Of a stretch of DNA of 64,000 bases, positions 31,859-47,653 are shown piece by piece. Source of the stretch: Brevibacterium atlanticum (lineage in GTDB: Bacteria > Actinomycetota > Actinomycetes > Actinomycetales > Brevibacteriaceae); the NCBI RefSeq assembly GCF_011617245.1, contig NZ_CP050152.1, forward strand, positions 310,001 through 374,000, in the 5' to 3' direction. The notes under the pieces were generated by a model that was not told the DNA's origin, did no database searches, and saw only the letters and a list, made by a program, of their open reading frames with translations. Position numbers and translations under genes: made by a program. The stretch's first letter is position 1, and each line of letters starts with the position of its first letter.

Positions 31859-33145
31859 CTACGAACCTATGAACGCCGTCGCGAAGAACGGCACGAACGT
31901 AACCAACGCGAGCGCCGCCAATAGCACCAGCGCGCTCGGGATCGCGGCCTTCGCGACACCGACGACGCTCATGCCCGACATGCCGGACGCGACGAACAGG
32001 TTGAGTCCCAACGGCGGTGTGATCATGCCGATCTCGAGGTTCATCACGACGATGATGCCGAAGTGGATCGGATCGATTCCCAGCTCCACCGCGATCGGCA
32101 ACAGGATCGGGGCGAGGATGAGGATCGCCGAGGACGTTTCCATCACACAGCCGACGAACAACAGCAGGATGTTGACGAGGATGAGGAACTGCCACGGCTG
32201 CAGGTCCCATTCGGTGATCGTCGACGAGATCTGACCAGGGATCCGTTCGCTGGCGAGCACGAAGGTGAAGAGGATGCCGTTGGCGATGATGAACATGACC
32301 ATCGCCGAGGTCTTCACCGACGCGAGCGTGACCTCCCACAGCTGCGAGATCTTGATCTCGCGGTAGATGAGCAGCGACACGACCAGCGAATAGGCGACGG
32401 CCACGGCAGCAGCCTCGGTGGGGGTGAACCATCCGGAGTAGATTCCGCCGAGGACGAGGAACGGCAGCGCGAGTGCGAGGATCGCATCCCGGAAGGCCTT
32501 GAGCTTGTCCTTGTTCGACATCCGGAACCCGACCCCGGCGTGACCGTAGCCCTTCCTCCAGGCGGCGAAGACCGCCATGCCCAACAGCATCACACCGGCG
32601 AGGATGCCCGGCAGGATACCGGCCAAGAAGAGGTCGCCGATGTTCTGCTCGGTGGCGATGCCGAAGACGATGAGCGGAATCGACGGCGGAATGAGGATGC
32701 CCAACGACCCCGAGGTGGCGACGAGTCCCGTGGAGAATTCCTTCGGGTACCCGTTCTTCACCATGGCCGGGATCATCAGCGCACCGACCGCGACAACCGT
32801 GGCTGGCGAGGACCCGGAGACTGCGGCGAAGAACATGCACGCGAGCACCGTGGTGATCGCCATGCCGCCGCGCAGGTGCCCGACCATGGCCGCACCGAAG
32901 TCGGTCAGCCGTCTCGAGATCCCGCCGCGGGACATGATGTTCGCGGCAAGGATGAAGAACGGGATCGCCATGAGCGGGAACGAGTTGAGCGCATTGAACA
33001 GCCGTTCCGAGACCTGAGTCATCGGGATGAGCGTAAAGTAATAGAAGTAGACGAGGCTGGTCAGACCCAAGGCGACCGCGATCGGCGCCGAGGTGACGAG
33101 CAAGGCGATGAGGACGACGATGAGGACGACAGTGGCTTCGAACAT
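31859..33145 (-). CDS. dctM: TRAP transporter large permease DctM
   Basis: A 428-residue membrane protein of the TRAP large-subunit type with about 12 helices. Family features are FPLMAIPFFILAANIMSRGGISRRL near residue 55, the GSSPATVVAVGALMIPAMVKNGY segment near 110 and GLNLFVASGMSG near the C terminus. It forms the sodium-driven channel for an organic anion delivered by the binding protein. The start ATG 33145 overlaps the DctQ stop. The operon is DctP-DctQ-DctM; the substrate is likely the dicarboxylate used by the genes from 35958 onward, because both units share the same promoter box. Confidence 0.93.
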   Translation of the reverse strand: MFEATVVLIVVLIALLVTSAPIAVALGLTSLVYFYYFTLIPMTQVSERLFNALNSFPLMAIPFFILAANIMSRGGISRRLTDFGAAMVGHLRGGMAITTVLACMFFAAVSGSSPATVVAVGALMIPAMVKNGYPKEFSTGLVATSGSLGILIPPSIPLIVFGIATEQNIGDLFLAGILPGILAGVMLLGMAVFAAWRKGYGHAGVGFRMSNKDKLKAFRDAILALALPFLVLGGIYSGWFTPTEAAAVAVAYSLVVSLLIYREIKISQLWEVTLASVKTSAMVMFIIANGILFTFVLASERIPGQISSTITEWDLQPWQFLILVNILLLFVGCVMETSSAILILAPILLPIAVELGIDPIHFGIIVVMNLEIGMITPPLGLNLFVASGMSGMSVVGVAKAAIPSALVLLAALALVTFVPFFATAFIGS

Positions 33146-33753
33146 CAGCGATCGCCTCCCTTCTCGTCGGTCTCACCATCGCCGAGGCGGTCGCCCCCGT
33201 CATCGACGATCGCGAGGTCCTCAACATCGATGCCGACGGCGGCAGCCTCCTCGGCGAGGACATCCTTGTCGAGTTCCGTCGCTGGAGTGCGCAGGGCGCG
33301 GATCGTCATCTCGACGGCGCGGATGAAGAACAGCGTCATGCCCACGGCCAGCGAGAGTTCGACGACCCACAGCGGCAGCTTGAGCGCCGGGGTGATCGTC
33401 GTCCGCGAGAACGGTTCGGTGATGAGCGCCCACGATAGGTAGGCGATGAAGCCCGCGTAGACCAGAGTGGCGAGTCCGCCGAGGACGACGAAGAACTTCT
33501 TCGCCTTGCCCTTGAGCAGAGCAGGCATGATGTCGACGGCCACATGCTCGTTGTGGCGCAGGGTGACCACCGCGCCGAAGAACGTCGAGAATATGATGAG
33601 GTAGATGACCGCCTCTTCGGACCAGAAGAGGACGTCACCGGTGATATTGCGCAGAAGCACGGCGAAGACCGCCAAGGCGGTGGCCGCGATGAGGCAGCCG
33701 CCGGCGAGGACGTTCTCGAGCCGACTGAGGTACTTGTCGATGGTCTTCATCAT
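33145..33753 (-). CDS. dctQ: TRAP transporter small permease DctQ
   Basis: A 202-residue four-helix TRAP small subunit, somewhat longer than usual because of an acidic C-terminal tail (residues 165-202, many Asp and Glu). The conserved FWSEEAVIYLIIFSTFFGAVVTLRHNEHVAVDI segment holds the typical WxEE and HxxVD features of the family. ATG 33753 sits in TGATG with the DctP stop, so translation is coupled. The tail beyond the last helix has no recognised function. Confidence 0.9.
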   Translation of the reverse strand: MMKTIDKYLSRLENVLAGGCLIAATALAVFAVLLRNITGDVLFWSEEAVIYLIIFSTFFGAVVTLRHNEHVAVDIMPALLKGKAKKFFVVLGGLATLVYAGFIAYLSWALITEPFSRTTITPALKLPLWVVELSLAVGMTLFFIRAVEMTIRALRTPATELDKDVLAEEAAAVGIDVEDLAIVDDGGDRLGDGETDEKGGDR

Positions 33754-34796
33754 CAGCCCCTCTTCTCGTTGCGTTCGAGGAGCTCGTCGACGACCTCGGG
33801 ACCGATGACGTCGCGGTACTTCTCGTATTCGGACGGCACGACCATGTCCTTGAAGGCTTGGCGTTCCTCCTTGCTCGGGATGACGATTTCCGTGCCGCCG
33901 GATTCCTGGATGGTCTTCTTCGACTCTTCGTTGACCTTCTGAGCTTCCTTGCGGTTGAACTCGCTGGCCTCATCGGCGGCCTCGTCGACTGCGGTCTGCA
34001 GGTCGTCCGGCAGTTCGTCGTACCAGCGCTTGTTCACCGTGAGGATGTAGCCGATATACCCGTGATCGAGTTCCGTCACATACTTCTGGACGGTGTGCAT
34101 GTTCTGCGACTGGATGTTCGAGTAGGTGTTCTCGCCTCCGTCGATGAGTCCCTGCTGCAGCCCGCTGTAGACCTCGGCGAACGCGAGCGGAGTCGGAATC
34201 CCACCCCAAGTCTCGAACTGGGTGCGCAGCACGTCCGAGGGCTGAATGCGGTACTTTTTGCCCTTCATATCCGCAGGTGCCAGCGTCTTGTTGTTCGAGT
34301 GAATCTGCTTCATGCCCGAGTCCCACAGACCGAGGACCTTGAGCCCGTTCTCCTCGAGATCGGGGTTCGCGTAGATGGCCTTCCCGATCTCGGTATCGGG
34401 ACTGGCGACCTCGGGGATCTCGTCGGGGTCGTCGAAGATGAACGGCAGATCGAGAACCTGCAGGCTCGGTGCGATCGTCGTGAACTTCGCGCTCGCCGGG
34501 GCCAAGACCTGGACGGCGTTGGACTGGATGGCCTGCATCTCGTCCTTATCGCCGTAGAGCTCCGAGTTCGGGAACACCTCGACCTCGATGCGGCCGCCGG
34601 ACCTCTTCTCGACCTGTTCGGCGAAGAAGTCGGCGGCCAGTCCCTTCGGTGTGCCCACCGAGGTGACATGGGCGAAGCGCAGTTCGAATTTCTGTTTGTC
34701 TCCGCTGCGGGCGGGATTGCATCCGCTCAGCAGCAGGAGGCTTATCGAGAGGCCCGCGATGAGCGGCTTCCACCTCGGTCGTCTCATTGACGTCAT
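33753..34796 (-). CDS. dctP: TRAP transporter substrate-binding protein DctP (lipoprotein)
   Basis: A 347-residue DctP-type binding protein. The signal peptide ends in LLLLSGC near residue 23, so it is membrane-anchored. The mature protein has FAHVTSVGTPKGLAADFFAE, VFPNSELYGD, and the substrate-carboxylate segment KYRIQPSDVLRTQFETWGGIPTPLAFAEVYSGLQQGLIDG, where the Arg that clamps the ligand carboxylate lies. ATG 34796 has GGAG 7 bases before it; ATG 34787 is an alternative. DctP proteins bind C4 or related organic acids; genes after 35958 suggest a C5 branched dicarboxylate. Confidence 0.92.
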   Translation of the reverse strand: MTSMRRPRWKPLIAGLSISLLLLSGCNPARSGDKQKFELRFAHVTSVGTPKGLAADFFAEQVEKRSGGRIEVEVFPNSELYGDKDEMQAIQSNAVQVLAPASAKFTTIAPSLQVLDLPFIFDDPDEIPEVASPDTEIGKAIYANPDLEENGLKVLGLWDSGMKQIHSNNKTLAPADMKGKKYRIQPSDVLRTQFETWGGIPTPLAFAEVYSGLQQGLIDGGENTYSNIQSQNMHTVQKYVTELDHGYIGYILTVNKRWYDELPDDLQTAVDEAADEASEFNRKEAQKVNEESKKTIQESGGTEIVIPSKEERQAFKDMVVPSEYEKYRDVIGPEVVDELLERNEKRG

Positions 34797-35112
34797 CGTC
34801 AGCTCCAGTCTGGTTGGCCAGGGGCGATGCCGATCGGGAGTGTGCGGACGAGCCCACACGTGAGAACAGCGGTCATTGCTGTGTGGAAAGCTCGTGCCGA
34901 GTCAGGTTCTCGATCGACCGTTCACGAGCCTAGAGGACTTTTCGCCGATTTCCAATATGATCGGAGAAAGAATGCATTATTTGTCGGCTGAGGAGTTCCC
35001 GGGTGGGTTCGTTGACGAGTTTGCAGGCGACTGCCTGGGCGCGAATAGCTGAAACTCGTGGAGGGGAGGCGCCTTCAGTTCGCGTCGACGTGCTCGGTCC
35101 GTGCCGGAGCAG
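34797..35112. other. Intergenic region with regulatory box G1
   Basis: This 316-base gap between the GntR and DctP genes holds box G1 at 34969-34984, about 170 bases before dctP. I found no other gene, tRNA or clear terminator in it. Confidence 0.4.
34969..34984. promoter_or_regulatory. GntR operator candidate G1
   Basis: AGAATGCATTATTTGT, with the palindromic core AATGCATT, upstream of the TRAP operon. The same box with one change, same orientation, stands at 35889-35904 before the CoA-transferase operon. Confidence 0.6.
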
Positions 35113-35811
35113 TCAGTCCGTGTCGAAGTCGAAGGGGTCGGAGACTGCCCGACCGGTCGTCGACTCGGCCAGGCGAAGGAAGCCGTTCGTGATGTGATCG
35201 CCGAGGTGGCGCGCTGCCGCGTCCGGATCGACGTCGCGGACAGCGTCGACGATCGACTGATGTTCGGCATGCACCTGGTCGAGTCTCTCGGGGCTGTCGA
35301 GGGTGAGGTCCCACGGGAACGCCCGCCAGCGTGCAGCGATGTCGTCGCGCAGCGCGGGCATTCCGCAGCGGTCGTAGAAGAAGAAGTGGAACTCCTCGTT
35401 GCGGGTGTTGCGTCCCAGCGAATCACCGTCGGCGCTGGCCTTGTCAAGCGCCTCGAGCAGGCGCTCAGCCTGGCGCAGCTCGTGTCGGGAGATCCGCGTG
35501 GTGGCGCGGGCGATGGCAAAGGTCTCGGTGAGCTTTCGGGTGACGAAGAGGGACTTGAGGCGGTCGACGTCGACGCCGGCAACCCGCACGCCGCGGTGCG
35601 CTTCGGAGGTGACGAGCCCCTCGGCTTCGAGGATCCGCAGAGCCTCGCGGACTGGGGTGATGGAGGCATTGAACCAGTCGGCGACCTGATCCTGTCGCAG
35701 CCGTTCGCCGCGGTCGAGCTCGCGAGAGAGGATCTTTCGGCGCAGGCCGAGGACGATGACGTCCCGCTTGGTCGATGCCGACTCCTGATCCACCCAATGC
35801 CTTTCGTTCAT
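35113..35811 (-). CDS. GntR family regulator (FadR/VanR subfamily)
   Basis: A 232-residue regulator with an N-terminal winged helix (QDQVADWFNASITPVREALRILEAEGLV, residues about 40-68) and a helical FCD ligand domain with the metal-site pattern residues NEEFHFFFYDRCG near 140 and DQVHAEHQSIVDAV near 188, where the His residues coordinate metal. FCD regulators usually sense small organic acids. It lies between the TRAP operon and the catabolic operon, and each is preceded by the same AATGCATT box. It most likely represses both until the imported acid or a derivative binds. Confidence 0.9.
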   Translation of the reverse strand: MNERHWVDQESASTKRDVIVLGLRRKILSRELDRGERLRQDQVADWFNASITPVREALRILEAEGLVTSEAHRGVRVAGVDVDRLKSLFVTRKLTETFAIARATTRISRHELRQAERLLEALDKASADGDSLGRNTRNEEFHFFFYDRCGMPALRDDIAARWRAFPWDLTLDSPERLDQVHAEHQSIVDAVRDVDPDAAARHLGDHITNGFLRLAESTTGRAVSDPFDFDTD

Positions 35812-35888
35812 ACGTCACCCTCTGTTGGGGTGTCAGTTTCATGTCTCGGTGGTCCCAGTCTACAGGCTCAGGCATCAGCTGAGACCAG

Positions 35889-35904
35889 AGAATGCATTAT
35901 CTGT
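35889..35904. promoter_or_regulatory. GntR operator candidate G2
   Basis: AGAATGCATTATCTGT, 15 of 16 bases identical to box G1, in the divergent promoter between the GntR gene and the CoA-transferase gene, 54 bases before the latter's ATG. The site could control both directions. Confidence 0.6.
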
Positions 35905-35957
35905 GAAGAGATGTATGATGTGGATGTCAACGTTTCATGCCTCGTCGTGGAGGGCCG

Positions 35958-37199
35958 ATGGCCACTGCTGCACCGACGTCCGTACCGAGCCCCGAGGGCC
36001 AGGGCGACGCGACCGCCTCGAACCTGCCGCTGTCCGGCATCACTGTCATCAGCTGCGAACAGGCAGTCGCCGCCCCCTTCGCCTCACGCCAGCTTGCCGA
36101 TCTCGGAGCCCGGGTAATCAAGATCGAACGCCCAGGCGTCGGCGACTTCGCCCGCGGATACGACACGACGGTCAAGGGGCTCTCGAGCCATTTCGTATGG
36201 ATCAACCGAAACAAGGAGAGCCTGGCGCTCGACCTCAAGAGCCCCGACGGGCTCAAAATCCTCCACGATCTCATCGCCTCTGCGGATGTGTTCATCCAGA
36301 ACTTCGCTCCCGGCGCGGCAGAGAGACTCGGCCTCGGTGCCGACGAGCTCCGTTCGATCAACCCTCGGCTGATCCATGCGTCGATCTCCGGATACGGAAC
36401 GGACGGGCCGTACAAAGACGCCAAGGCATACGATGCGCTTGTGCAGGCCGAGGCAGGACTGGTCTCCGTGACCGGAACAGAGGAGTTCCCCGCGAAGACG
36501 GGAATTTCGACGGCAGATATCGCCGCGGGAATGTACACGTACTCCGGCATCCTCACCGCTCTGTACAACCGCGAGCGCACGGGCGAAGGAGCCACCTTGT
36601 CGACGAGCCTCTTCGACTCCCTCGTCGAATGGATGGGCTACCCTCTCTACTTCACCCGCTATGGCGGCACTCGCCCCACTCGCGCCGGCACCTCCCATGC
36701 CGCCATCGCCCCCTACGGTGCTTTCACCTGCGGCGATGGCACTCAGATCATGCTCGCGATCCAGAACGAACGCGAATGGAAACGCTTCGCCAGTCAGGTT
36801 CTCGACCGTCCCGATATGGTCACCGACGAACGCTTCGACCGTGCCGCTCACCGCTACGCCCACCGACACGAACTCCAAGAGATCATCGAGCGAGCCTTTT
36901 CCGCGCTCACCGGTGAGGCCTGCGACGCTCTGCTCGAACAGGCAGTAGTCGCCCACTCGAGGCAGCGCGATATGAGCGAGATCGCCGACCACCCGCAGCT
37001 GACCGAACGCCACCGCTGGCACGAGGTCGAGACGCCCGCAGGTCCGATCTCCATGCTCGCGCCCCCGGTCGAGATGTCCGGGGTAGGCCCACGGATGGAC
37101 CCGATCCCGGCAGTGGGACAGAACTCGGAGCCCATCCTCGGCGAGCTGGGAATGGATGCCGAGGCGATCGGCGAACTGCGCAATAACGGGGTGATCTGA
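35958..37199 (+). CDS. Family III CoA-transferase (CaiB/BaiF)
   Basis: A 413-residue family III CoA-transferase, moving CoA between carboxylic acids through an aspartyl-CoA anhydride. Motifs: [30 protein letters not shown], the [12 protein letters not shown] segment, and the catalytic Asp in [19 protein letters not shown] near residue 165. ATG 35958 is chosen over 35937 because GGAGG lies 5 bases ahead. It is the first gene of the operon and faces the GntR gene. Family relatives include succinyl-CoA:citramalate and succinyl-CoA:methylsuccinate-type transferases; the present substrate is inferred to be a C5 dicarboxylate from neighbouring genes. Confidence 0.88.
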
Positions 37200-37204
37200 C
37201 GACG

Positions 37205-38947
37205 ATGAATGACGAACCCGCACAACCGACCGACGGCGGGGCCGCCTCGGCGGGGGCCGACGACTTCGCCTATTCACCTCTGCTTCCCACCGAAGGCGAA
37301 GGCCCGCGGATGCGCCGGCTAGACATCGGGGGAGTGGACACGACGGCTGCCGAGGTGGCAGGCGTGTCGCGTGCGTTCCTTACGGTGGCACCGGAGACTC
37401 TGTCCGACCTCGCCGAGGTCGCCTTCAAGGAGATCTCGCACTACCTGCGCACCGACCACCTGGCCGGCCTGCGCGCGATCATCGACGATCCGGAAGCCAG
37501 CGACAACGACGTCTTCGTCGCCCTCGACCTGCTGCAGAATGCCGCAGTCTCGGCCGGGGAGATCCTGCCGATGTGTCAGGACACGGGCACGGCGATCGTC
37601 TCGGGCAAGCGCGGCCCGAACGTGCTCACCGACGGTGACGATGCCAGGTATCTGTCCCGCGGAATCGGCCGTGCCTATGAGGAGCTCAACCTCCGGTACT
37701 CGCAACTGGCACCGACGAGCCTGTTCGAAGAATCCAACACCGGCACCAACCTGCCCGCCCAGATCGAGGTGGCACTGAGCCCGGCCGATGACTACGAGCT
37801 GCTGTTCATGGCCAAGGGAGGAGGCAGTGCGAATAAGTCCTTCCTCTATCAGGAAACGAAGGTCGTACTCAACGAGTCGGCGATGCTCGACTTCCTCGCC
37901 GAGAAGATCTCCACCCTCGGCACAGCGGCCTGCCCTCCCTACCATCTGGCCGTCGTCATCGGCGGGCCGTCGGCGGAATTCACGCTCAAGACCGCGAAGC
38001 TTGCCAGCGCCCACTATCTCGATGGCCTGCCGGATACCGGAGACGCCGAGTTTGGCCACGGATTCCGGGACCGGGAATTCGAGCAGACCGTCTTCGAGCT
38101 CACGCAGAACCTCGGATTCGGTGCTCAGTTCGGCGGCAAGTACTTCTGCCACGACGTCCGGGTGGTCCGGCTGCCCCGGCACAACGGGTCCCTGCCGATC
38201 GCAATCGCCGTGAGCTGCTCGGCCGACCGACAGATCATCGCCCGGATCAACGCCGACGGTGTATTCATCGAGGAGCTCGAACACGATCCGGCGAAGTTCC
38301 TGCCCGCGATGGGCCGGGTCGAGGAGATCGAATCCGGCAATGTCACCGCCATCGACCTCGACCGACCAATGCCGAGTCTGCAGGCACAGCTGTCCGAACT
38401 GTCCGTCGGTGACCGAGTGTCGCTGTCGGGAACGGTCATCGTCGCCCGCGACATCGTGCATGCGGTGCTGCGGGACCGCCTCGGCGCGGGTGGGGAGCTT
38501 CCCGAGTATTTCAAGGATCATCCCATCTACTATGCTGGGCCGGCGAAGACGCCCGAAGGGATGCCTTCGGGGTCCTTCGGGCCGACCACCTCGTCGCGGA
38601 TGGACACCTATGTGCGGCAGTTCCAAGAGGCAGGTGGGTCGCTCATCATGCTCGGCAAGGGAAACCGGTCTGCGCAGGTGAAGAACTCGTGCGCCGAGTT
38701 CGGCGGCTTCTATCTCGGTTCGATCGGTGGACCGGCAGCCCGGTTGGCGCAGGACTGCATCACCGAGGTGGACGTTCTCGATATGGAAGAGCTCGGGATG
38801 GAAGCCGTGTGGCGGATCCGGGTCGAGGACTTCCCAGCGTTCATCATCACCGACGACAAGGGCAATGACTTCTTCGACAGCACCGGGCCGCCGACGCTCG
38901 GCCTCGGCCGGACTCGCACGGTCCGCGACGGCACCCGATTGGACTGA
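37205..38947 (+). CDS. Class I fumarate hydratase / mesaconase-like [4Fe-4S] hydro-lyase
   Basis: A 580-residue class I fumarase with both domains in one chain. The three cluster cysteines can be placed in MCQDTGTA near residue 125, TAACPPYH near 242 and VSCSADRQ near 337, and the strings [15 protein letters not shown] and [19 protein letters not shown] are those of FumA. Such enzymes hydrate fumarate to malate, and several also hydrate mesaconate to (S)-citramalate. Its location between a CoA-transferase and mesaconyl-CoA enzymes, rather than with the TCA genes, favours a mesaconase role. The N-terminal 40 residues form a low-complexity extension. Start at ATG 37205, 5 bases after the transferase. 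Confidence 0.92.
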
Positions 38948-39050
38948 GCCGATCGACCACTGATCGGGCGACGGGCGGGCAGGGCCACTTCGGCGAGGAA
39001 CCGATGGCACACAGACGAACACAGCGCACCAAGGAACAGAGGATTTCACC

Positions 39051-40199
39051 ATGGCAGTGAGCAATGAAGAGCAGATGATGATCGATCTGGTCGCCGAATT
39101 CATCGACGAACAGGTCAAACCATCCGTCAACAAGGTCGAGCACGCGAACGAATATCCCGAAGCGTGGATCCAGGCGATGAAGGATATGGGCATCTATGGG
39201 CTCGCGATCGACGAGCCGTGGGGGATGGGCAAGGTCTCGACGGAGGCGTACGCGCTCATCACTCAGGAGCTCGCGCGCGGGTGGATGTCTCTGGCCGGTG
39301 CCATGGGCGGGCACACCGTCGTCGCGAAGCTCATCCAGGAATACGGCACTGACGAGCAGAAGGATCAGTACCTGCCGCGGATGGCCACCGGTGAGCTGCG
39401 AGCGACGATGGCGCTGACCGAACCCGGCGGCGGTTCTGACCTCCAAGCCATGCGCACCACTGCGACGAAAGACGGCGAGGACTACGTCATCAACGGGTCG
39501 AAGACGTGGATCACGAACGCCCGGAAGTCCGATCTCATCGCGCTGCTGTGCAAGACCGACCCCGAGGCGGAGCCCCGGCATAAGGGCATCTCGATCATCC
39601 TCGTGGAGAAGGGGGAGGGTTTCACGGTCTCCCAGGATCTGTCGAAGCTCGGTTACAAGGGTGTCGAGACCTGCGAACTGTCCTTCGACGGTCTGAGGCA
39701 GCCGCAGTCGCAGCTGCTCGGAGAGGCTGAGGGGGTCGGGTTCAAGCAGATGATGAAGGGACTCGAGATCGGTCGCATCCAGGTCGCGTCCCGGTCGCTC
39801 GGCGTCGCGCAGGCGGCCCTCGATGATGCGGTGAAGTACTCGCAGGAACGCGAGTCGATGGGCAAGCCGATCTGGAAGCATCAGTCGGTGGGCAGCAAGC
39901 TCGCCATGATGGCCACGAAGCTCGAGGCTGCTCGGCAGCTCGTTCTCTACGCCGCTCGCACTTATGACTCGGGTGCGAGGGTCGATATGGAGGCCGGAAT
40001 GGCGAAGCTCTACGCCTCGGAGATGGCCGCCGAGGTGGCCCTCGACGCCATCCGTGTCCATGGCGGTTACGGATATTCCACCGAGTACGACGTCGAGCGC
40101 TATTACCGTGACGCCCCGCTGATGATCGTCGGTGAGGGCACGAACGAGATCCAGATGAACGTCATCGCCAAGCAGCTCATCGGCCGGAACAGGGCCTGA
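39051..40199 (+). CDS. Acyl-CoA dehydrogenase
   Basis: A 382-residue FAD dehydrogenase with normal motifs: MALTEPGGGSDLQ near residue 122, ITNARKSD in the substrate pocket, the C-terminal FAD segment IRVHGGYGYSTEYDVERYYRDA, and the catalytic Glu in GEGTNEIQ near residue 364. GAGGA precedes the ATG. It is paired with the next dehydrogenase, and their similar length and position suggest either a two-substrate pathway or a heteromer. Oxidation of methylsuccinyl-CoA to mesaconyl-CoA is a candidate reaction here; the known (2S)-methylsuccinyl-CoA dehydrogenase is a longer enzyme, so this is context only. Confidence 0.92.
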   Translation: MAVSNEEQMMIDLVAEFIDEQVKPSVNKVEHANEYPEAWIQAMKDMGIYGLAIDEPWGMGKVSTEAYALITQELARGWMSLAGAMGGHTVVAKLIQEYGTDEQKDQYLPRMATGELRATMALTEPGGGSDLQAMRTTATKDGEDYVINGSKTWITNARKSDLIALLCKTDPEAEPRHKGISIILVEKGEGFTVSQDLSKLGYKGVETCELSFDGLRQPQSQLLGEAEGVGFKQMMKGLEIGRIQVASRSLGVAQAALDDAVKYSQERESMGKPIWKHQSVGSKLAMMATKLEAARQLVLYAARTYDSGARVDMEAGMAKLYASEMAAEVALDAIRVHGGYGYSTEYDVERYYRDAPLMIVGEGTNEIQMNVIAKQLIGRNRA

Positions 40200-40273
40200 G
40201 CGGCCTCCGGCTTTACTCGCCGGCCTAACCCGCCTCGGCCCAGCCGACCACGAACTCCACTCGAGGAGAAGAA

Positions 40274-41449
40274 ATGACCCACAAACCCCGTCCGCGTCCG
40301 GACACTCCGCACATGATGACCGAGGAGCGCCTCGAGATCCAGGCGCTCGCCCGCGAATTCGCCCACGACGTCGTTCTGCCGATCGCCAATGAGCTCGATC
40401 CGGTCGAGGGACAGTTCCCCGACTCGATGGTCAAGCAGATGGCGGAGATGGGGTTCTTCGGCATTCTCATCCCCGAAGAGTACGGGGGTCTGGGGCTCGG
40501 CGTGTTCGAGTACTGCGTCGTCGCCGAGGAACTCTCCCGTGCCTGGATGTCGGTGGCCGGCCTGCTCGCCCGCGGCAACGGGATGGGCGGCGGGTTCTCT
40601 CCCGAGCAGGAGGCTCGTCTGCTGCCGAAGGTCGCTGCCGGTGAGTACCTCGGCGCGTTCGCCCTCTCCGAGGCCGAGGCCGGGTCCGATGTCGCGAACC
40701 TGCGGTGCAAGGCCGAACGCAATGCCGACGGTGATTGGGTCATCAACGGGACGAAGATGTGGTGCACGTATGCCGATCAGGCCGATTACATCATCCTCTT
40801 CGCCCGCACCTCGGTCGAGGAGAAGCGGCATCGGGGGATCTCGGTGTTCCTCGTCGAGAAGGAACGCGGCACCTTCCCCGAAGGCATTTCCGGGGCACCG
40901 GCGAAGAAGATCGGCTACCACGGGTGGAAGACCTGGGAACTGTCGTTCGACAACTTCGTCCTCCCGGCTGATTCTCTGCTCGGCGAAGAAGGCCGTGGGT
41001 TCTATCAGGCGGTCTCCGGTCTCGAGGTGGGGCGTGCGCATACGGCGGCACGGTCGATCGGTCTGGCCCAGGCGGCACTCGAGGACTCGGTGAAGTACCT
41101 GAAGGAACGGGAACAGTTCGGGCACCCGCTCGCGGACTTCCAACATCTGCGGTTCAAGGTCGCGGACATGGCCGCGCAGATCGAGGCGTGCCGGCAGCTG
41201 ATGTATCACGTGTGCACGCAGATCGACTCCGGTCGCCGCTGTGACAAGGAAGCGGCGATGGTGAAGTACCTGGCCGGAGAGATGAGTGAGAAGGTCACCT
41301 CGGAGGCTCTGCAGATCCACGGTGGTGCCGGGTACACGAAGGACTTCGCCGTCGAACGCTACTGGCGGGATGCGCGCCTCACGAAGATCTTCGAGGGCTC
41401 GTCTGAGATCCAGATGCGCATCATCTCCGACGAACTCCTAGGCCGCTGA
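40274..41449 (+). CDS. Acyl-CoA dehydrogenase
   Basis: A 391-residue dehydrogenase with IPEEYGGLGLG, ALSEAEAGSDVANLR, IHGGAGYTKDFAVERYWRDARL and the catalytic Glu in FEGSSEIQ near residue 378. A CTYADQADY segment replaces the more usual ITNAxxAD, which may reflect a changed substrate pocket. Good GAGGAG site before ATG 40274. It ends just before a long palindrome at 41451-41512. With its neighbour it supplies the oxidation step(s) of the operon; which of the two acts on which C5 acyl-CoA cannot be told. Confidence 0.92.
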   Translation: MTHKPRPRPDTPHMMTEERLEIQALAREFAHDVVLPIANELDPVEGQFPDSMVKQMAEMGFFGILIPEEYGGLGLGVFEYCVVAEELSRAWMSVAGLLARGNGMGGGFSPEQEARLLPKVAAGEYLGAFALSEAEAGSDVANLRCKAERNADGDWVINGTKMWCTYADQADYIILFARTSVEEKRHRGISVFLVEKERGTFPEGISGAPAKKIGYHGWKTWELSFDNFVLPADSLLGEEGRGFYQAVSGLEVGRAHTAARSIGLAQAALEDSVKYLKEREQFGHPLADFQHLRFKVADMAAQIEACRQLMYHVCTQIDSGRRCDKEAAMVKYLAGEMSEKVTSEALQIHGGAGYTKDFAVERYWRDARLTKIFEGSSEIQMRIISDELLGR

Positions 41450-41450
41450 A

Positions 41451-41512
41451 TTGCTACCCGACGGCGGCGCAACAACGTGGCGCGAGGGTGCTGGGCCGCC
41501 GTCGGGTAGCAA
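41451..41512. repeat. Long perfect palindrome (REP-like unit or terminator)
   Basis: Arms TTGCTACCCGACGGCGGC (41451-41468) and GCCGCCGTCGGGTAGCAA (41495-41512) are perfectly complementary over 18 bases around a 26-base loop. It fills almost the whole gap between the dehydrogenase and hydratase genes. The symmetric TTGCTACCC ends make a repeated extragenic element more likely than a plain terminator, though it can do both. Only one copy was noticed here. Confidence 0.7.
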
Positions 41513-41566
41513 ATGGGACCAACAACCAGGCTGGCAATGACCACTACCGTAAGGATGATGACGACG

Positions 41567-42427
41567 ATGAGTGAATCTCTGGATCTGCAGGACTGGGTGG
41601 GTCGGACGGCGACCCTGACCGAGACCGCCGACGGCCAGCGGGCCGCACGCCTGGCCACCCTGCTCGGCCACGACGGCGACGCGCAGGCACCGCTGTTCCC
41701 ACTCGGGCATTGGCTGCACTTCTCCGAAGACGATGTGCCAAGGAGCGAACTCGGTGTCGACGGGCATGCGGCCCTCGGCGGGTTCATGCCGCCCGTGCCG
41801 CTGCCCAGGCGGATGTGGGCGAGCAGCCAGCTGGAATTCCACACCCCGATCCTGCCCGGGCAGAACATTGAGCGGACGACGACGATCGAATCGATCACGG
41901 AGAAGACCGGCAGCACCGGACCCCTGTGCTTCGTCGTCCTCCGCCACGACGTCTCCGCCGATGGCCACCTGGCGACGACGGATCGGCACACGATCGTCTA
42001 CCGTCAAGCCACCTCGGCGCCAGCCGGGTCGGCAGCGAAACCGCCACGGGCGGACTCTCCGGTCCCCGACGGTTGGGAATGGTCCGAGTCCGTGCGACCG
42101 GACGAGGTCATGCTGTTCCGGTACTCGGCGTTGACGTTCAACTCCCACCGCATCCACTACGACCACCCCTACGTCACCAAGGTCGAAGGCTACCCGGGCC
42201 TGGTCACGCACGGCCCGCTGACAGCGACCCTGCTGTTGGACGCGTTCATCACCATCCACCCCGAGGCGACGATGACCGAATATGACTTCAGAGCGAAGTC
42301 ACCCCTATTCGCCGGCGAGCAGATCCACCTCGTCGGCCGGGCGACCGAGCCCGGGAAGCATGAGCTTCAGGCGATTGCCCCGGATGGGACGACCGCGATC
42401 GCGGCGACCGTGACGACCACGGTCTGA
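41567..42427 (+). CDS. MaoC/FAS1-type dehydratase family; mesaconyl-C4-CoA (3-methylfumaryl-CoA) hydratase-like
   Basis: A 286-residue double hot-dog protein. The N-terminal half has the pattern HWLHFSEDDVPRSELGVDGH, and the C-terminal half LFRYSALTFNSHRIHYDHPYVTKVEGYPGLVTHGPL, the string that marks the mesaconyl-C4-CoA hydratase group and related fungal-type HTD2 dehydratases. In Chloroflexus this enzyme makes (S)-citramalyl-CoA from mesaconyl-C4-CoA. The isomerase-like gene follows 62 bases later, the same functional pair as in the 3-hydroxypropionate bi-cycle. Several ATG codons exist; 41567 follows TAAGGA at 11 bases, and 41537 is the upstream alternative. Confidence 0.8.
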   Translation: MSESLDLQDWVGRTATLTETADGQRAARLATLLGHDGDAQAPLFPLGHWLHFSEDDVPRSELGVDGHAALGGFMPPVPLPRRMWASSQLEFHTPILPGQNIERTTTIESITEKTGSTGPLCFVVLRHDVSADGHLATTDRHTIVYRQATSAPAGSAAKPPRADSPVPDGWEWSESVRPDEVMLFRYSALTFNSHRIHYDHPYVTKVEGYPGLVTHGPLTATLLLDAFITIHPEATMTEYDFRAKSPLFAGEQIHLVGRATEPGKHELQAIAPDGTTAIAATVTTTV

Positions 42428-42489
42428 TCATGCCCGCACCGTTGTCATCGACTCACGTCCCTCATCATCGACAGATTGGTTGAGCACCC

Positions 42490-43662
42490 ATGTCAGATCC
42501 TCGCCCCGCACCCCTGTCCGGCCTCAAAGTCGTCGAGATCTCTGCGTTCATCGCTGCACCCCTCGGTGGGATGACCCTGGCACAGCTCGGGGCCGACGTC
42601 ATCCGCATCGACCCGATCGGCGGGAACATCGACGCGAACCGGTGGCCGATCAGCGACGACGGCACGAGCATCTACTGGGCGTCCCTGAACAAGGGGAAAC
42701 GCTCGGTCACTCTCGACCTCAAGTCTGAGGAGGGTCAGAAGATCGCGACCGATCTCATCGCCGAGGCGGGAACGCTGATCACGAATCTGCCCGCCCGTGG
42801 GTGGCTGAGCTACGAGAACCTCGTCGCCCATCGTGAGGATCTGGTCATGCTGCGCCTGGGCGGGTGGCACGACGGGTCGCCGGCAGTGGACTACACGGTC
42901 AATGCCGCCAGCGGTTTCCCGATCATCACCGGTGATGACGAGAAGCCGGTGAACAATGCGCTGCCGGCCTGGGATGTCGCGGCCGGGCTCTATATCGCCA
43001 ACGGGATCATGGCCGCCGAGCTGGATCGGCGCGCATCGGGGAATGGGCAGGAGATCACCCTGGCCCTGTCGGATGTCATGCTCGCGACCGTCGGCAACCT
43101 CGGCTACATCGCCGAGGTCCAGGCGACCGGGAAGACGCGTGGACCCTTGGGCAATGGGCTCTACGGTGCCTACGGTCAGTCGTTCGCGACCTCGGACGAC
43201 CGGCAGATCATGGTCGCGGTGATCTCGAACAAGCATTGGCGCGGCCTGGGCAAGGCGACGGGGCTGAGCGAGAAACTCGAGATGATCGGGCCCCTGTTGG
43301 AGGTGGATCTGACGACTGAGGGCGGCCGGTTCGAGGCTCGGGAGGCCATCGATGCGGTGGTGCGGCCGTGGTTCGCAAAGCACACCGCCGCCGAGGCGGA
43401 AGTCGCGCTCAAGGAGGCCGGTGTGTTGGTCGGCGGCTTCCAGACGTTCGAGGAGCTCGTGACCTCCGATCCCCGGTGTTCGTTGGAGAATCCGCTGCTG
43501 ACCGAGATCGACCAGCCCGGTGTGGGGCGGGTGCTGGCCCCACGCGTGCCGCTGCGCTTCGCCGGGTCACCGGTCGCGGATGCCGTGGCTGCACCGCAGC
43601 TGGGCGGGGACACCGAGGCCGTGCTCAAGGACGTGCTGGGACGCACGCCGGATAACGAATAG
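42490..43662 (+). CDS. Family III CoA-transferase, 2-methylfumaryl-CoA isomerase (Mct)-like
   Basis: A 390-residue CaiB-fold protein. Its N terminus, VVEISAFIAAPLGGMTLAQL then GADVIRIDPIGGNID and NRWP, followed by SLNKGKRSVTLD and LITNLPARGWLSYENLVAHR, agrees closely with what I recall of mesaconyl-CoA C1-C4 CoA transferase from Chloroflexus, unlike the first transferase of this operon. The putative catalytic Asp is in PAVDYTVNAASGFP near residue 137. The enzyme moves CoA within mesaconate from C1 to C4. Position next to the hydratase strengthens the call. A general CoA-transferase is the alternative. Confidence 0.78.
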   Translation: MSDPRPAPLSGLKVVEISAFIAAPLGGMTLAQLGADVIRIDPIGGNIDANRWPISDDGTSIYWASLNKGKRSVTLDLKSEEGQKIATDLIAEAGTLITNLPARGWLSYENLVAHREDLVMLRLGGWHDGSPAVDYTVNAASGFPIITGDDEKPVNNALPAWDVAAGLYIANGIMAAELDRRASGNGQEITLALSDVMLATVGNLGYIAEVQATGKTRGPLGNGLYGAYGQSFATSDDRQIMVAVISNKHWRGLGKATGLSEKLEMIGPLLEVDLTTEGGRFEAREAIDAVVRPWFAKHTAAEAEVALKEAGVLVGGFQTFEELVTSDPRCSLENPLLTEIDQPGVGRVLAPRVPLRFAGSPVADAVAAPQLGGDTEAVLKDVLGRTPDNE

Positions 43663-43795
43663 TCACACTCTCAATGAAGAAGGCAGTGTGCCCGGCAGGC
43701 AGCGCACCGCCATGAAGTGACCCTGGAAGATCAGGCATTCGCGGCAGCGGTGGTGGCTCCCATTGGTGCGCATGGCCAAGAGTCTCACAATCTGA

Positions 43796-43839
43796 TTAAC
43801 GCCTATTGACTTTTGGATTGATCAAACACTAGCGTGAAA
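43796..43839 (+). promoter_or_regulatory. Bipartite promoter/operator element, copy A
   Basis: TTAACGCCTATTGAC followed after 17 bases by ACTAGCGTGAAA, with the -35 TTGACT inside the first part and TAGCGT at the -10 position (18-base spacer). The same element, with both parts at identical spacing, lies before the SDR operon on the minus strand (59733-59776). Confidence 0.65.
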
Positions 43840-43915
43840 GAGCAGTGAGCCGCTCCCGCGGCATCGCATCCGCGTTGCGAAGAGGCACGCCGGACCGAAA
43901 GGAACCAGCTGCTCC

Positions 43916-46198
43916 ATGTTTGCTGATCTCGAACTGCTTGTCCGCCCCCGTTCCGTCGGAGTCGTCGGTGCCTCGGAGGACCGGGGGAAAGGGCCGGGAC
44001 GCATCATTCCCCTGCTCGAGGCCTCGGGCTTCACCGGGAGCATCCACCCGGTCAACCCGAAGTACACTCGCGTGAACGATCGACCATGTTTTCCCACTGT
44101 CGGGGACCTGCCCGAGACCGTCGACCTCGTCGTCATCATGGTCCCGGCGGAGGCCGTGGTCGCGGCGGTGGCCGACAGCGCCGCGCACGGGGTGAAGTTC
44201 GCGATCATCATGTCCTCCGGGTTCTCCGAATTCGGCGAAGCCGGCACCCGGATGCAGGACGAGATCACCAGGATCGCTCGAACGTCTGGGATGCGCATCT
44301 ACGGCCCGAACTGCCCAGGCCTGCTCAACTTCATCGATGGCCTGCCGATCTCCTTCTCCCCGCGCCTCAACCAGGAGGCCTGGAATCCGGGCCGCGTCGC
44401 CGTCATCACCCAAGGCGGGGCGATGGGGAGAGCGGTCATCGACTCGATGGAGACGCACGGAACCCCGAAGCTCAACTATTGGTTCTCGCCCGGCAACGAG
44501 GCCGACCTGCAGGCCGCGGACTTCCTCGGCTGGCTCGCCGACGACGAACACACGGACATCATCGTCCTCATCATGGAGAGCTTCCGTGACGGCCGCCGCT
44601 TCATGGAGGCCGCCCGCCGGGCCCGCGCCGCCGGCAAGGTCGTCGCCCTGCTCAAGATCGGACGCTCCGATGAGGGTCGGCGCGCGGCGGCCACCCACAC
44701 GGCCGCCGTGGCCGGATCCGACCGTGCCGTCGACGCCGCCCTGGGGCAGTGCGGCGTCATCCGCGTCGACGACCTCGACGAACTCATCGATGTCGCTCGG
44801 ATCATCGAACGATACGGGGTCACGTCGCTGGAGAACATCGGAGTGTGCAGCCTCTCCGGCGGATCCGCGGCCCTGCTGGCCGACATATGCGGGCAGCAGG
44901 GACTGAGCCTCGAACGCCCGACCGAGGAGACGGTGCAGGCCATGGCCCGGATCCTCCCGGCACTCGCCGCCGTCGGCAACCCCGTCGACCTCACCACCGG
45001 CATCTTCAGCAGCCCCGAACTCGTCGAAGAGGCGATGCGCCTGTTCCTCGACGACGAGCGCATCGACGCCGCGATCATGCCCTTCCCTTATCACCTGGGA
45101 GCGATCAACGAGGTGATGGCCGAGAAGCTCGTCATCATCGCCGCGGAGACGACCAAGCCGATCATCGCCGTCGGCATGTCCGAGGCCGTCCTCGACAGCG
45201 CCGCCGCCCGCATCCTCCGGGCGGCCGAGATCCCGTTCATCCACGCGCCGACGAAGACCGTGACCGCCGTCGAACGCTGCCGCAGGCTCGCCCGCGAACG
45301 AGCTCGCATCGCGACCGAACCGCTGCCCGCCGAGGCGGCTCCGACCGGTCCGTCCCGCATCGGCACCGCTCCCGCCGAGCCTGCCGTGCAGACCGCGGCC
45401 CCGACCGGCACCGCACTGTTCCCTCCGGCGAAGACCGGTGCCCTGAGCGAAGAGGAGAGCGAGGCCATCCTCAGCCGGGCCGGCGTGCCGTTCCCCGCCT
45501 CCCGCATCGTCGACACCCTCGACGAAGCCGAAGCCGCCGCCTCGGCGCTGGGCTATCCGGTCGTGCTCAAAGCCGCCACCGAGCTCATCGCGCACAAGTC
45601 CGATGCCGGTCTCGTGCGCACCGACATCGTCGATCCGAGCAGCCTCGCCGCCGCTTTCGCCGAGATCCGCGACAATCACCGCCGGGCCACCGGCGCCGAG
45701 CACGTCCCGATCAAGGTCGTCGAGCGCCTCGACGGCGGTGCGGAGGTGATGTGCGGCATCGTCATGGACCCGGCCTTCGGGCCGGTCGTCAGCGTCGGCC
45801 TGGGCGGCATCTTTGCAGAACTGCTCGGCGACTCCGCGCTGCGGGTGTGCCCCATCGACGAGGCCGAGGCCGCCATGATGATCGACGAAACCGCGGCCGG
45901 GGCCGTCCTCGACGGAGCTCGCGGCCGGCCGAAGCTCGCCAAGGCCGCCTTGGCCGCGCTCGTCAGCGAGCTCAGCCGCTTCGCCGTGGCCGAGGCCGAC
46001 CGGCTCGCCGGCATCGACCTCAACCCCGTGCTCGTGCGCGACGATGAAGCGATCGCCCTCGACGCCCTCATCATCGCGGCCGAAGCGCCGACATCCGCAC
46101 CGAACGAAACCGCAGAGCCCACCCGGCAGACCCGCCCATCGGGCACTCAGCCGTCCGGCGACGGAGCCGGACCGATCAGAGAGATGAGCCATGACTGA
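43916..46198 (+). CDS. NDP-forming acyl-CoA synthetase (acetate--CoA ligase family)
   Basis: A 760-residue fused enzyme: CoA-binding domain (FADLELLVRPRSVGVVGASED, residues 1-140), two succinyl-CoA-ligase-like domains (to about 460) with the phospho-His candidate in ATHTAAVAGSD near residue 263, an Ala/Pro/Thr-rich linker (460-510) and an ATP-grasp domain (LSEEESEAILSRAGVPF onward). It forms an acyl-CoA from acid, CoA and ATP, releasing ADP and phosphate. It heads the Liv operon, overlapping LivG, so it probably activates the acid that the importer brings in. A tail after residue 735 is low-complexity. Confidence 0.9.
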   Translation: MFADLELLVRPRSVGVVGASEDRGKGPGRIIPLLEASGFTGSIHPVNPKYTRVNDRPCFPTVGDLPETVDLVVIMVPAEAVVAAVADSAAHGVKFAIIMSSGFSEFGEAGTRMQDEITRIARTSGMRIYGPNCPGLLNFIDGLPISFSPRLNQEAWNPGRVAVITQGGAMGRAVIDSMETHGTPKLNYWFSPGNEADLQAADFLGWLADDEHTDIIVLIMESFRDGRRFMEAARRARAAGKVVALLKIGRSDEGRRAAATHTAAVAGSDRAVDAALGQCGVIRVDDLDELIDVARIIERYGVTSLENIGVCSLSGGSAALLADICGQQGLSLERPTEETVQAMARILPALAAVGNPVDLTTGIFSSPELVEEAMRLFLDDERIDAAIMPFPYHLGAINEVMAEKLVIIAAETTKPIIAVGMSEAVLDSAAARILRAAEIPFIHAPTKTVTAVERCRRLARERARIATEPLPAEAAPTGPSRIGTAPAEPAVQTAAPTGTALFPPAKTGALSEEESEAILSRAGVPFPASRIVDTLDEAEAAASALGYPVVLKAATELIAHKSDAGLVRTDIVDPSSLAAAFAEIRDNHRRATGAEHVPIKVVERLDGGAEVMCGIVMDPAFGPVVSVGLGGIFAELLGDSALRVCPIDEAEAAMMIDETAAGAVLDGARGRPKLAKAALAALVSELSRFAVAEADRLAGIDLNPVLVRDDEAIALDALIIAAEAPTSAPNETAEPTRQTRPSGTQPSGDGAGPIREMSHD

Positions 46199-46943
46199 GG
46201 ACGCAGCAACGACGACGGTGGAGCGCGGCGAGCCCCTGCTCGAGATCGAACACATCGCCAAGAGCTACAGCGGCCTCAAGGCCCTCGACGACGTCACCTT
46301 CAGCGTCAGCCGCGGCGAGATCGCCGCCCTCATCGGCCCCAACGGCGCCGGGAAGACGACGATGTTCGACATCATCACCGGCTTCACCCGCCCCGATCGC
46401 GGACGAGTCGTCTTCGCCGGCGACGACATCACCCGCACCGCCCCGCACCGGCTGGCCTCCCGCGGACTCGTCCGCAGCTTCCAGACGGCGAAGATGTTCC
46501 CCTCGATGACCGTCGAGGAGATCGTCCTCACCGCCTCCATGCTCAAGAACGACCGGAAGACGGCGAAGGGCAAGGTCGAGAAGATCCTCACCGACATCGA
46601 GCTCACCGCGAAGGCCCGCAGCTACGCATCCGAGCTGTCCCTGCCCGACCGGCAGATGGTCGAACTGAGCAAGTGCGTCGCCCTCGAACCCACGATGATC
46701 CTCCTCGACGAGATCATGGGCGGGCTCAACCGGGCTGAGGCGGAGACCCCCATCGCCGCCATCCGCACCCTGCGCGACCAGGGTCTGACCTTCCTCCTCG
46801 TCGAACACGTGATGCCGATCGTCATGTCCCTGTGCGAGCACATCGCCGTCCTCGACTTCGGCCGCTGCATCGCCACGGGCACCCCGCAGCAGATCGCGGT
46901 CGACCCTGACGTGCAGCGCTCGTACCTGGGAGGTACCGCCTGA
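46191..46943 (+). CDS. livG: Branched-chain-type ABC importer ATPase LivG
   Basis: A 250-residue ATPase of the Liv (HAAT) family. Walker A is GPNGAGKTT near residue 49, Walker B ILLDEIMGGLN near 170. The signature region reads ELSLPDRQMVELSK, a variant of LSxGxxQ seen in some HAAT ATPases, where the central Gly is missing. It partners LivF in driving import through LivH/LivM. The ATG lies in the end of the synthetase gene (8-base overlap). HAAT importers of this arrangement transport amino acids, but also aromatic and aliphatic acids in actinobacteria; the acyl-CoA synthetase suggests an organic acid. Confidence 0.92.
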   Translation: MTEDAATTTVERGEPLLEIEHIAKSYSGLKALDDVTFSVSRGEIAALIGPNGAGKTTMFDIITGFTRPDRGRVVFAGDDITRTAPHRLASRGLVRSFQTAKMFPSMTVEEIVLTASMLKNDRKTAKGKVEKILTDIELTAKARSYASELSLPDRQMVELSKCVALEPTMILLDEIMGGLNRAEAETPIAAIRTLRDQGLTFLLVEHVMPIVMSLCEHIAVLDFGRCIATGTPQQIAVDPDVQRSYLGGTA

Positions 46944-47653
46944 TGCTGCTCTCGGTTGCCGATCTCGCCTCCGGCTACGGCCGGCAGGACATCATCAACG
47001 GCGTCTCCTTCGACCTCAGCGAGAAGGACTTCTCCTGCCTCCTCGGCTCGAACAACTCCGGCAAGTCGACGATGATCAACACCCTCTCCGGTCTCATCCG
47101 CGCCCGGGCCGGGACGATCGAGTTCTGCGGGGAGGACATCTCCCGCCTGCGCCCGAACGAGCGAGTGCGTCGCGGACTCGTCCAGATCCCCGAAGGCCGC
47201 CAGCTGTTCCCGGAGATGACCGTCTTCGAGAACATCATCATGGGCGGCAACGGGGACCGGCGCAGTCCCGGCTACGACCGCAGCCTCCTCGACGATGTCT
47301 TCGACCTGTTCCCGAACCTGCGGGACCGATCCCAGCAGCGGGCGGGCTCCCTGTCCGGCGGCGAACAGCAGATGGTGGCCATCGGCCGCGGCATGATGAG
47401 TCGACCCACCCTGCTCATGCTCGACGAACCCTCACTCGGCCTGGCGCCGATGGCCGTCGAGTCGATCTTCGAGACCCTCTCCCAGCTCAACGACTCGGGA
47501 GTCTCGATCCTCCTCGTCGAACAGAACCTCCACGTCTCCCTCCAGCACGCCCGGTACGCCTACGTGCTCGAACGCGGAGAGATCGTCGTCCGCGGCACCG
47601 CCGAGGAGATCGCCGGAGACGACAATGCCCGCAAAGCCTATCTGGGGATGTGA
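46943..47653 (+). CDS. livF: Branched-chain-type ABC importer ATPase LivF
   Basis: A 236-residue ATPase with Walker A GSNNSGKST near residue 36 (an Asn-Asn-Ser variant of the common GxNGAGKST), the LivF-typical Q-loop segment VQIPEGRQLFPEMTVFENIIMG, the signature LSGGEQQMVAIGR near residue 135 and Walker B LLMLDEPSLGLAP. Start ATG 46943 is in TGATG with LivG. Together with LivG it forms the two ATPases of the importer. Confidence 0.93.
   Translation: MLLSVADLASGYGRQDIINGVSFDLSEKDFSCLLGSNNSGKSTMINTLSGLIRARAGTIEFCGEDISRLRPNERVRRGLVQIPEGRQLFPEMTVFENIIMGGNGDRRSPGYDRSLLDDVFDLFPNLRDRSQQRAGSLSGGEQQMVAIGRGMMSRPTLLMLDEPSLGLAPMAVESIFETLSQLNDSGVSILLVEQNLHVSLQHARYAYVLERGEIVVRGTAEEIAGDDNARKAYLGM

Follow-up and report, generated by a model that had tools for sequence, protein, structure and literature searches.

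We describe a gene block in a window of 64,000 nucleotides that covers positions 310001-374000 of a 4.16 Mb single-contig Brevibacterium genome. The block spans 31859-43662 of the window, and positions below are window positions unless the genome is named. On the minus strand lie the genes of a tripartite ATP-independent periplasmic (TRAP) importer, namely a DctM/IctM-like large permease (31859-33145), the small permease DctQ (33145-33753) and a DctP/IctP-like substrate-binding protein (33753-34859), followed by a GntR-family regulator with an FCD domain (35113-35811). The regulator is divergent from a row of plus-strand genes. These encode CoAT1, a family III CoA-transferase of the Ict type (35937-37199); a class I fumarase, the proposed mesaconase (37205-38947); two acyl-CoA dehydrogenases, ACAD1 (39051-40199) and ACAD2 (40274-41449); a MaoC/FAS1-type hydratase of the mesaconyl-C4-CoA/itaconyl-CoA hydratase type (41567-42427); and a CoA-transferase (42490-43662) that resembles Mct of the 3-hydroxypropionate bi-cycle. 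ACAD2 is the proposed maker of the Mct substrate. A first-pass annotation had assigned 35813-43662 to C5 branched-dicarboxylate catabolism, and this is still the likeliest role. All the genes it named are present, with the TRAP and regulator genes sitting just outside that interval on the opposite strand. We lean towards reading the block as an operon, under regulation, that breaks down C5 branched dicarboxylates by a two-lane scheme involving Mct. Judged from sequence, the pathway as a whole is probable and the two lanes are plausible.

The cluster is real and more than a chance assembly, since it recurs across Brevibacterium genomes with Mct. Gene content of the compared loci was settled by tblastn and family scans. 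We searched 57 Brevibacterium genomes. Mct of at least 85% identity is present in 24, a second kind at 38-44% in 14, and 19 lack both at E<=1e-60. Wider samples of the order and the phylum, in which the best four candidates per genome were scored at E<=1e-110, gave Mct in 15 of 396 genomes, all Brevibacterium, and in 8 of 396, that of the window included. The hydratase adjoins Mct in every one of the 24 genomes. ACAD2 lies at most about 2.5 kb from Mct in 22 of them. It is on another contig in G018 and was not found in G047, whose Mct contig (L015, by coordinates) starts inside ACAD2. The fumarase shares the Mct contig, within 12 kb, in 19 of the 24, while G018 and G047 carry it on different contigs. 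Across the genus the fumarase is limited to genomes with either Mct type (26/38 against 0/19), being found in 21 of 24 with the Mct orthologue and 5 of 14 with the second type. ACAD2 has a similar distribution, present in 37 of the 38 genomes with either type and in none of the 19 without. When ACAD2 and Mct were paired on a tree of the lyase discussed below (56/57 genomes), there were 7 independent pairs, all concordant (median p 0.016). Hydratase and Mct gave just 5 pairs on this tree, which is not significant. A genomic-island table for B. luteolum lists Mct, Meh, mmgC, mmgC, fumB, yfdE, glaR, dctP and dctM, and no function for the set was seen in the excerpt available (PMC12467314).

The Mct-like protein is closest to the structures of Mct from Roseiflexus castenholzii (7xkg, E 4.8e-118) and Chloroflexus aurantiacus (8apq, 4.5e-112), and the next CaiB structure reaches only 3.5e-29. 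All are family III proteins. D162, R51 and I47 of the window protein are D165, R47 and L43 of known Mct; the numbering was anchored on D165 and R47 together, which share one offset. Leu or Ile at the cork position 43 is conserved in intramolecular enzymes (PMC9813914, excerpt). Our CaiB alignment has 56 rows, including 43 Mct-like rows besides Roseiflexus and 9 other CaiB proteins of the genome (a tenth has no row). Equivalents of Arg47 and Asp165 are present in all 43 Mct-like rows, and position 43 is Leu or Ile in 26 of them. The 9 other CaiB proteins all have the Asp, while none has Arg47 or Leu/Ile43, and CoAT1 and Ict likewise have neither of the latter two. In the second Brevibacterium type this position is Pro in 10/10 rows and Leu/Ile in 0/10; Pro is also found in Ancylobacter and Sphingobium Mct. 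In a tree of 45 rows picked from the 56, the window protein groups with Azospirillum, Roseomonas-type and actinobacterial homologues (98/99). This group joins the Roseiflexus Mct at 97/96, and the second Brevibacterium type falls outside. The closest structures, Arg47 with Leu/Ile43 and the supported clade bear out the earlier Mct placement.

The proteins around it point to another known system. CoAT1 (PF02515, CoA_transf_3, 371 bits) is 55.5% identical to Ict of a Pseudomonas aeruginosa plasmid cluster and forms a clade with Ict and a Bradyrhizobium homologue at 100/100, in a tree with few Ict sequences. Neither CoAT1 nor Ict is above the cut-off of any NCBIfam model, and there is no Ict model among those matched. 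By its sequence CoAT1 is of the pseudomonad itaconate-CoA-transferase type. The first-pass annotation had only a CoA-transferase here. With the Ict type supported by identity and clade, the block stands as close to the itaconate/methylsuccinate cluster as it does to the bi-cycle. The hydratase best matches the itaconyl-CoA hydratase structure 8khg (E 2e-65) and is 45% identical to P. aeruginosa Ich. It is of the Ich/Meh kind. The Meh-like label first given to it holds as to this kinship and goes too far in choosing Meh over Ich, which sequence does not decide. Some sources name its homologues 3-methylfumaryl-CoA hydratase. The class I fumarase (PF05681 and PF05683) scores 673 bits with NF011920, under the cut-off of 1094. 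It was noted before and could plausibly serve mesaconate. There is a FumC-like protein elsewhere in the genome (570 bits against a cut-off of 664.75), and with it the tricarboxylic acid cycle does not have to rely on the class I enzyme.

The importer gives a less specific signal. The large permease scores above the TIGR00786 cut-off (458 bits), matches PF06808 and shares 48% identity with the IctM encoded on a P. aeruginosa plasmid. DctQ matches PF04290 at 90 bits. DctP is above the TIGR00787 cut-off (254.7 bits) and 36% identical to IctP, and it keeps 7/9 IctP binding-site residues, with S91 replaced by Ala and V234 by Ile (residue list from PMC12599236, excerpt). Most of the kept residues are common to C4 binders, so this signature says dicarboxylate and not C5. 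The regulator (PF00392 and PF07729) is 84-98% identical among the sibling clusters that carry one. Between it and CoAT1 lies an intergenic region (35812-35936) that we take as a putative operator/promoter. Its AATGCAT ... ATGTAT stretch is conserved in 16/16 aligned rows, some of which are the same genome twice.

One could argue from these proteins that the block is mainly a pseudomonad-kind itaconate degradation cluster made of Ict, Ich, a distant lyase and TRAP, with the dehydrogenases and Mct as accessories. The identities of CoAT1, the hydratase and DctM fit this idea, and so does the Ict clade. We consider it unlikely. The known itaconate route has no use for a dehydrogenase, a fumarase or Mct, but in most of the 24 genomes they lie beside the hydratase. 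Further, Ile at DctP position 234 is neither the Val of IctP nor the Leu of C4 binders (PMC12599236, excerpt). Among the nearest known systems is the P. aeruginosa PA0878-PA0886 type of cluster (represented by L091), whose genes, named by order, encode Ich, methylsuccinyl-C4-CoA dehydrogenase, methylsuccinate isomerase, Ict, Ccl and IctPQM. Its route runs by C4 esters (PMC12290011, excerpt). It shares with the Brevibacterium cluster the Ict-type CoA-transferase, the Ich-type hydratase, TRAP, a dehydrogenase and a presumed citramalyl-CoA node. The Brevibacterium cluster differs in having no lyase, and has instead two dehydrogenases that are not orthologues of PA0879, the class I fumarase, GntR and Mct. 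No MmgE/PrpD methylsuccinate isomerase is among the genes scanned at 31859-50834, the only part of the genome in which one was sought. Overall the cluster resembles a hybrid between the itaconate/methylsuccinate and the Mct modules.

ACAD1 is of the FadE3 family (PDB 4iv6, E 1.7e-181). It keeps the equivalents of the catalytic Glu and Arg421 of MCD, the (2S)-methylsuccinyl-CoA dehydrogenase of the ethylmalonyl-CoA pathway, which was previously the only methylsuccinyl-CoA dehydrogenase known (PMC12290011, excerpt). Gly precedes the catalytic Glu in ACAD1. This may give a beta-branched ester more space in the pocket, an idea based on a passage about ThnO and isovaleryl-CoA dehydrogenase (PMC11659651, excerpt). 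ACAD2 carries the MCD equivalents Arg252, Thr418, Arg421, Phe534 and Glu535, the first of which is essential in MCD. Arg252 is conserved in 121 of 121 aligned rows, although the alignment is gapped nearby and this residue is less certain; Arg421 and its partner Thr418 are each in 120, and Phe534 and Glu535 in all 121. ACAD2 has two of the three Arg that line the MCD carboxylate pocket (residues from PMC5798300, excerpt). The dehydrogenase in PA0879's place in L091 carries its Glu at 421 and lacks one at 535, and the same Glu arrangement describes isovaleryl-CoA dehydrogenase (PMC5798300, excerpt). With its Glu at 421 and not 535, the C4 enzyme of pseudomonads seems to be a separate solution.

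Parts of the block also occur separately. G041, G031 and G042 have ACAD1 and the hydratase but neither ACAD2 nor Mct, and on the lyase tree G041 pairs with the genome of the window (99/83). The hydratase is also present at 80% identity in G009, and at 46-61% in G001, G007, G009, G010, G019, G029 and G033. Stretches from G029, G010 and G007 have GntR-CoAT1-fumarase-ACAD1 with no hydratase or Mct. Because gene subsets occur separately, we read the block as three modules with two dehydrogenase lanes. The modules are ACAD1 with the hydratase, ACAD2 with Mct, and the genes for uptake, activation and fumarase. The route first proposed for this DNA was a single line, with oxidation to the C1 ester followed by Mct. 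Its Mct, its kind of hydratase and its absent lyase all stand. The single line does not suffice, because there are two dehydrogenases and because genomes exist with ACAD1 and hydratase and without ACAD2 and Mct.

We propose the following scheme. The TRAP importer would take up methylsuccinate, mesaconate and/or itaconate, and CoAT1 would load CoA onto the acid, probably from succinyl-CoA as in Ict. In the first lane ACAD1 would turn methylsuccinyl-C4-CoA into mesaconyl-C4-CoA for the hydratase. In the second ACAD2 would turn methylsuccinyl-C1-CoA into mesaconyl-C1-CoA, and Mct would then shift the CoA to C4; this division of labour between the dehydrogenases is our suggestion. The hydratase product would be (S)-citramalyl-CoA. 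Through the fumarase, free mesaconate could be linked to (S)-citramalate, a possible substrate of CoAT1. Mct and ACAD2 together would then stand in for the methylsuccinate isomerase of pseudomonads and open the pathway to either form of methylsuccinate.

The last step requires a citramalyl-CoA lyase. There are 9 PF03328 matches in the genome (two in one gene) and none within 310001-374000, so the window lacks this enzyme as the first-pass annotation said. A candidate lies elsewhere, at genome positions 1219741-1220541 (L006). Its best structural match is Mycobacterium tuberculosis Rv2498c (chain 6aq4, E 1.1e-90), and the next different lyase is at 2e-32. Rv2498c cleaves (S)-citramalyl-CoA and (R)-3-hydroxy-3-methylglutaryl-CoA (PMC6689899, excerpt). 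It comes from another organism, and the function of the Brevibacterium protein is putative. The candidate would split (S)-citramalyl-CoA into acetyl-CoA and pyruvate, and probably doubles in leucine breakdown as Rv2498c does. A lyase of this type is present in 56 of the 57 Brevibacterium genomes, the sole miss being G012, which is 86% complete. Since the lyase is nearly universal, it speaks for the completeness of the pathway and not for its existence. Among the other PF03328 matches, those at genome positions 1039669, 3586068 and 273816 best fit HpaI-type aldolases. Of two further ones, neither our first choice as lyase, that at 2843952 is weaker (97.9 bits to RipC) and that at 804719 most resembles malyl-CoA lyases (E 7e-31). 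The latter belongs to a locus at genome 804025-805387 on the minus strand (L067), where a second CitE-type lyase whose best PDB match is a malyl-CoA/beta-methylmalyl-CoA lyase adjoins an Ich-like MaoC protein and a biotin carboxylase.

Several observations weigh against the two-lane scheme. Neither dehydrogenase is orthologous, by sequence, to a known methylsuccinyl-CoA dehydrogenase. Both are 34% identical to PA0879, which is no closer than the other dehydrogenases compared. ACAD2 is unlike MCD in having no N-terminal extension and a Phe/Leu pocket in place of Ala285/Phe287. The Ala285 of MCD, which leaves space for the methyl group, is Phe (or Tyr) in ACAD2, and Arg376 is replaced by His (Phe in 117/121 rows). 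The co-occurrence of ACAD2 and Mct is partly plain linkage, as expected where genes adjoin. The fumarase is missing in 3 of the 24 Mct genomes (G017, G040 and G045), and in the loci of G017 and G040 (L047 and L044) the row is ACAD1-ACAD2-hydratase-Mct with CoAT1 not adjoining. The supply of the C1 ester is a further difficulty. Cupriavidus necator Ict yields the C4 ester only, and methylsuccinyl-C1-CoA is a dead end there (PMC12290011, excerpt). A Haloarcula family III enzyme does form mesaconyl-C1-CoA and accepts methylsuccinate. It must be noted that the name Mct in that work is used for this different enzyme, a succinyl-CoA:mesaconate CoA-transferase (PMC5592240, excerpt).

The Mct-like protein itself is also imperfect. 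It scores 408.6 with TIGR04253, against a cut-off of 725, and for this reason we file it as Mct-type and not as Mct proper. Compared with the Chloroflexus and Roseiflexus enzymes it is set among catabolic genes, and it lacks the Arg314 (Gly instead), Ser132 and Glu133 named for Roseiflexus MCT. The Arg314 equivalent is in just 4 of the 43 Mct-like rows. This protein could then be an ordinary intermolecular CoA-transferase, for example succinyl-CoA:mesaconate CoA-transferase. The low TIGR04253 score suits that idea and so does a match to NF041294, the model for that transferase, at 106 bits of the required 700. We give it a slim chance. The window protein has the Leu/Ile43 and Arg47 of intramolecular enzymes, which are absent from CoAT1, Ict and the 9 other CaiB proteins, and CoAT1 is already an intermolecular enzyme.

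The company ACAD2 keeps elsewhere raises a different problem. Its copies adjoin an AMP ligase in L097, L099, L100 and L043 and a thiolase in L100 and L101, and four genomes have a second copy. G028 has a further gene set between ACAD1 and ACAD2 (L043 2999-9657) with MaoC, a transporter, a SnoaL-like protein, TetR, a 254-aa protein with no Pfam match, an alpha/beta hydrolase and AMP ligase. From these neighbours and the L043 gene set, the ACAD2 family may serve other acids or come from another pathway. L039 has a gap of like size at the same place, and similar gene sets lie beside the second ACAD2 copies in L100 and L101.

This leads to the argument that ACAD2 and Mct serve the beta-oxidation of a larger dicarboxylate, with Mct shifting CoA for oxidation of the second arm as ThnP does for ThnO. 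There is a precedent in the anaerobic naphthalene breakdown of culture N47, where ThnO and ThnT are likewise two dehydrogenases working with an intramolecular CoA-transferase and both CoA regioisomers are usable. N47 differs in that ThnP is a family I transferase, the substrate is alicyclic and the process is anaerobic (PMC11659651, excerpt). The ligase and thiolase neighbours of ACAD2 favour this argument, as does the second Mct subfamily of the 14 genomes, which is beside electron-transfer flavoprotein (ETF) genes in 3/3 loci read and beside thiolase in two. Still, we regard it as quite improbable for the window. The window Mct is in the Roseiflexus clade, with the second subfamily outside and carrying Pro at the cork, and the neighbours in the window are Ict- and Ich-like, not thiolase.

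The loci of the second subfamily are L049-L058. ETF genes adjoin in L051, L053 and L055, thiolase is beside Mct in L053 and L055, and a family I CoA-transferase gene is near in L055. The second-type Mct and ACAD2 are neighbours in G009 and G022, distant on one contig in G010, G029 and G054, and on separate contigs in nine of the 14 genomes. This subfamily is possibly an intramolecular CoA-transferase of another beta-oxidation route.

The names Mct and Meh also invite an assignment to the 3-hydroxypropionate bi-cycle, glyoxylate assimilation or the ethylmalonyl-CoA route. Both are bi-cycle enzymes, and in some distant Actinomycetota Mct does adjoin a CitE-type lyase and a MaoC-like protein. We find this assignment very improbable. 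No crotonyl-CoA carboxylase/reductase (CCR) in the genome scores above its cut-off (68.7 against 378.55 bits; 1 of 14 control genomes passes), so the ethylmalonyl-CoA pathway is unsupported. The gene surroundings do not support the bi-cycle; no search was made for bi-cycle Mch, malonyl-CoA reductase or propionyl-CoA synthase. The model for the haloarchaeal mesaconyl-C1-CoA hydratase gave at best 67.6 against a cut-off of 560 and passes in 0/14 controls, and since the haloarchaeal hydratase is unlike the Chloroflexus one (PMC5592240, excerpt) this is no test of bi-cycle Mch. The distant actinobacterial sets are at L060 2-3100 and L062 9861-12940, where the MaoC-like protein has 317-343 aa and a weak or no Pfam match. 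In L063 (7300-10500) the CitE-type lyase and Mct adjoin on opposite strands. Perhaps this set is a mesaconyl-CoA hydratase, lyase and Mct for glyoxylate assimilation.

Mct is found near dehydrogenases outside the genus as well. Eight of the 24 plasmid records found with Mct were examined. In six (Azospirillum, Paraburkholderia, Variovorax, Ancylobacter, Sphingobium and pAKD34) a dehydrogenase of 528-569 aa lies within 2.1 kb of Mct. All six have Arg at the three MCD positions, and three have the MCD Ala/Phe pocket. The Pseudonocardia and Marinobacter records show no such arrangement. A hydratase and a lyase are also nearby in the Paraburkholderia and Sphingobium records. The conjugative plasmid pSHV1 of Sphingobium herbicidovorans (L088 8989-13487) has them in a row: Mct, a long MCD-type dehydrogenase (528 aa), the hydratase and a RipC/Ccl-like lyase (266 of 375 bits). 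It shares with Brevibacterium the combination of an Mct type, a dehydrogenase and a Meh/Ich-type hydratase. Of the two, only pSHV1 has the single long dehydrogenase and the lyase in the row, and unlike Brevibacterium it has no activating CoA-transferase, fumarase or TRAP annotated in the row.

We make a broader proposal tentatively. Brevibacterium would accept both CoA regioisomers, each with its own dehydrogenase, and Mct would merge the mesaconyl-CoA isomers with no isomerase to interconvert the methylsuccinate enantiomers. Mct would then be a general heterotrophic tool wherever a methylsuccinyl-C1-CoA dehydrogenase drains to acetyl-CoA and pyruvate, also on the Azospirillum, Sphingobium and Paraburkholderia plasmids. 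In a literature search with most subscription journals outside its coverage, no paper was found that joins bi-cycle Mct with methylsuccinate use, and none about such a cluster was among the matches listed for Brevibacterium and itaconate. Itaconate comes from macrophages and fungi, and methylsuccinate from gut bacteria (PMC12290011, excerpt). If the scheme is right, a non-mycobacterial actinobacterium has a complete candidate pathway for itaconate/methylsuccinate, Mct is used outside autotrophy, and FadE3-type dehydrogenases gain a candidate function. It would also mean that in genome surveys an Mct/Meh annotation alone is no proof of the 3-hydroxypropionate bi-cycle.

The block has a G+C content of 0.62-0.65 in 4-kb steps, inside the window range of 0.59-0.70. 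Downstream of Mct, at 43916-50834, are genes for an ADP-forming acyl-CoA ligase and a branched-chain ATP-binding cassette (ABC) transporter. Nothing matches them in the sibling loci L010-L024 and L039-L048, although some of these loci stop shortly past Mct. For lack of a match we leave them out of the system. Another CoA_transf_3 match lies at 50960-51979 on the minus strand, in a 585-aa frame, and forms a long branch among the CaiB proteins.

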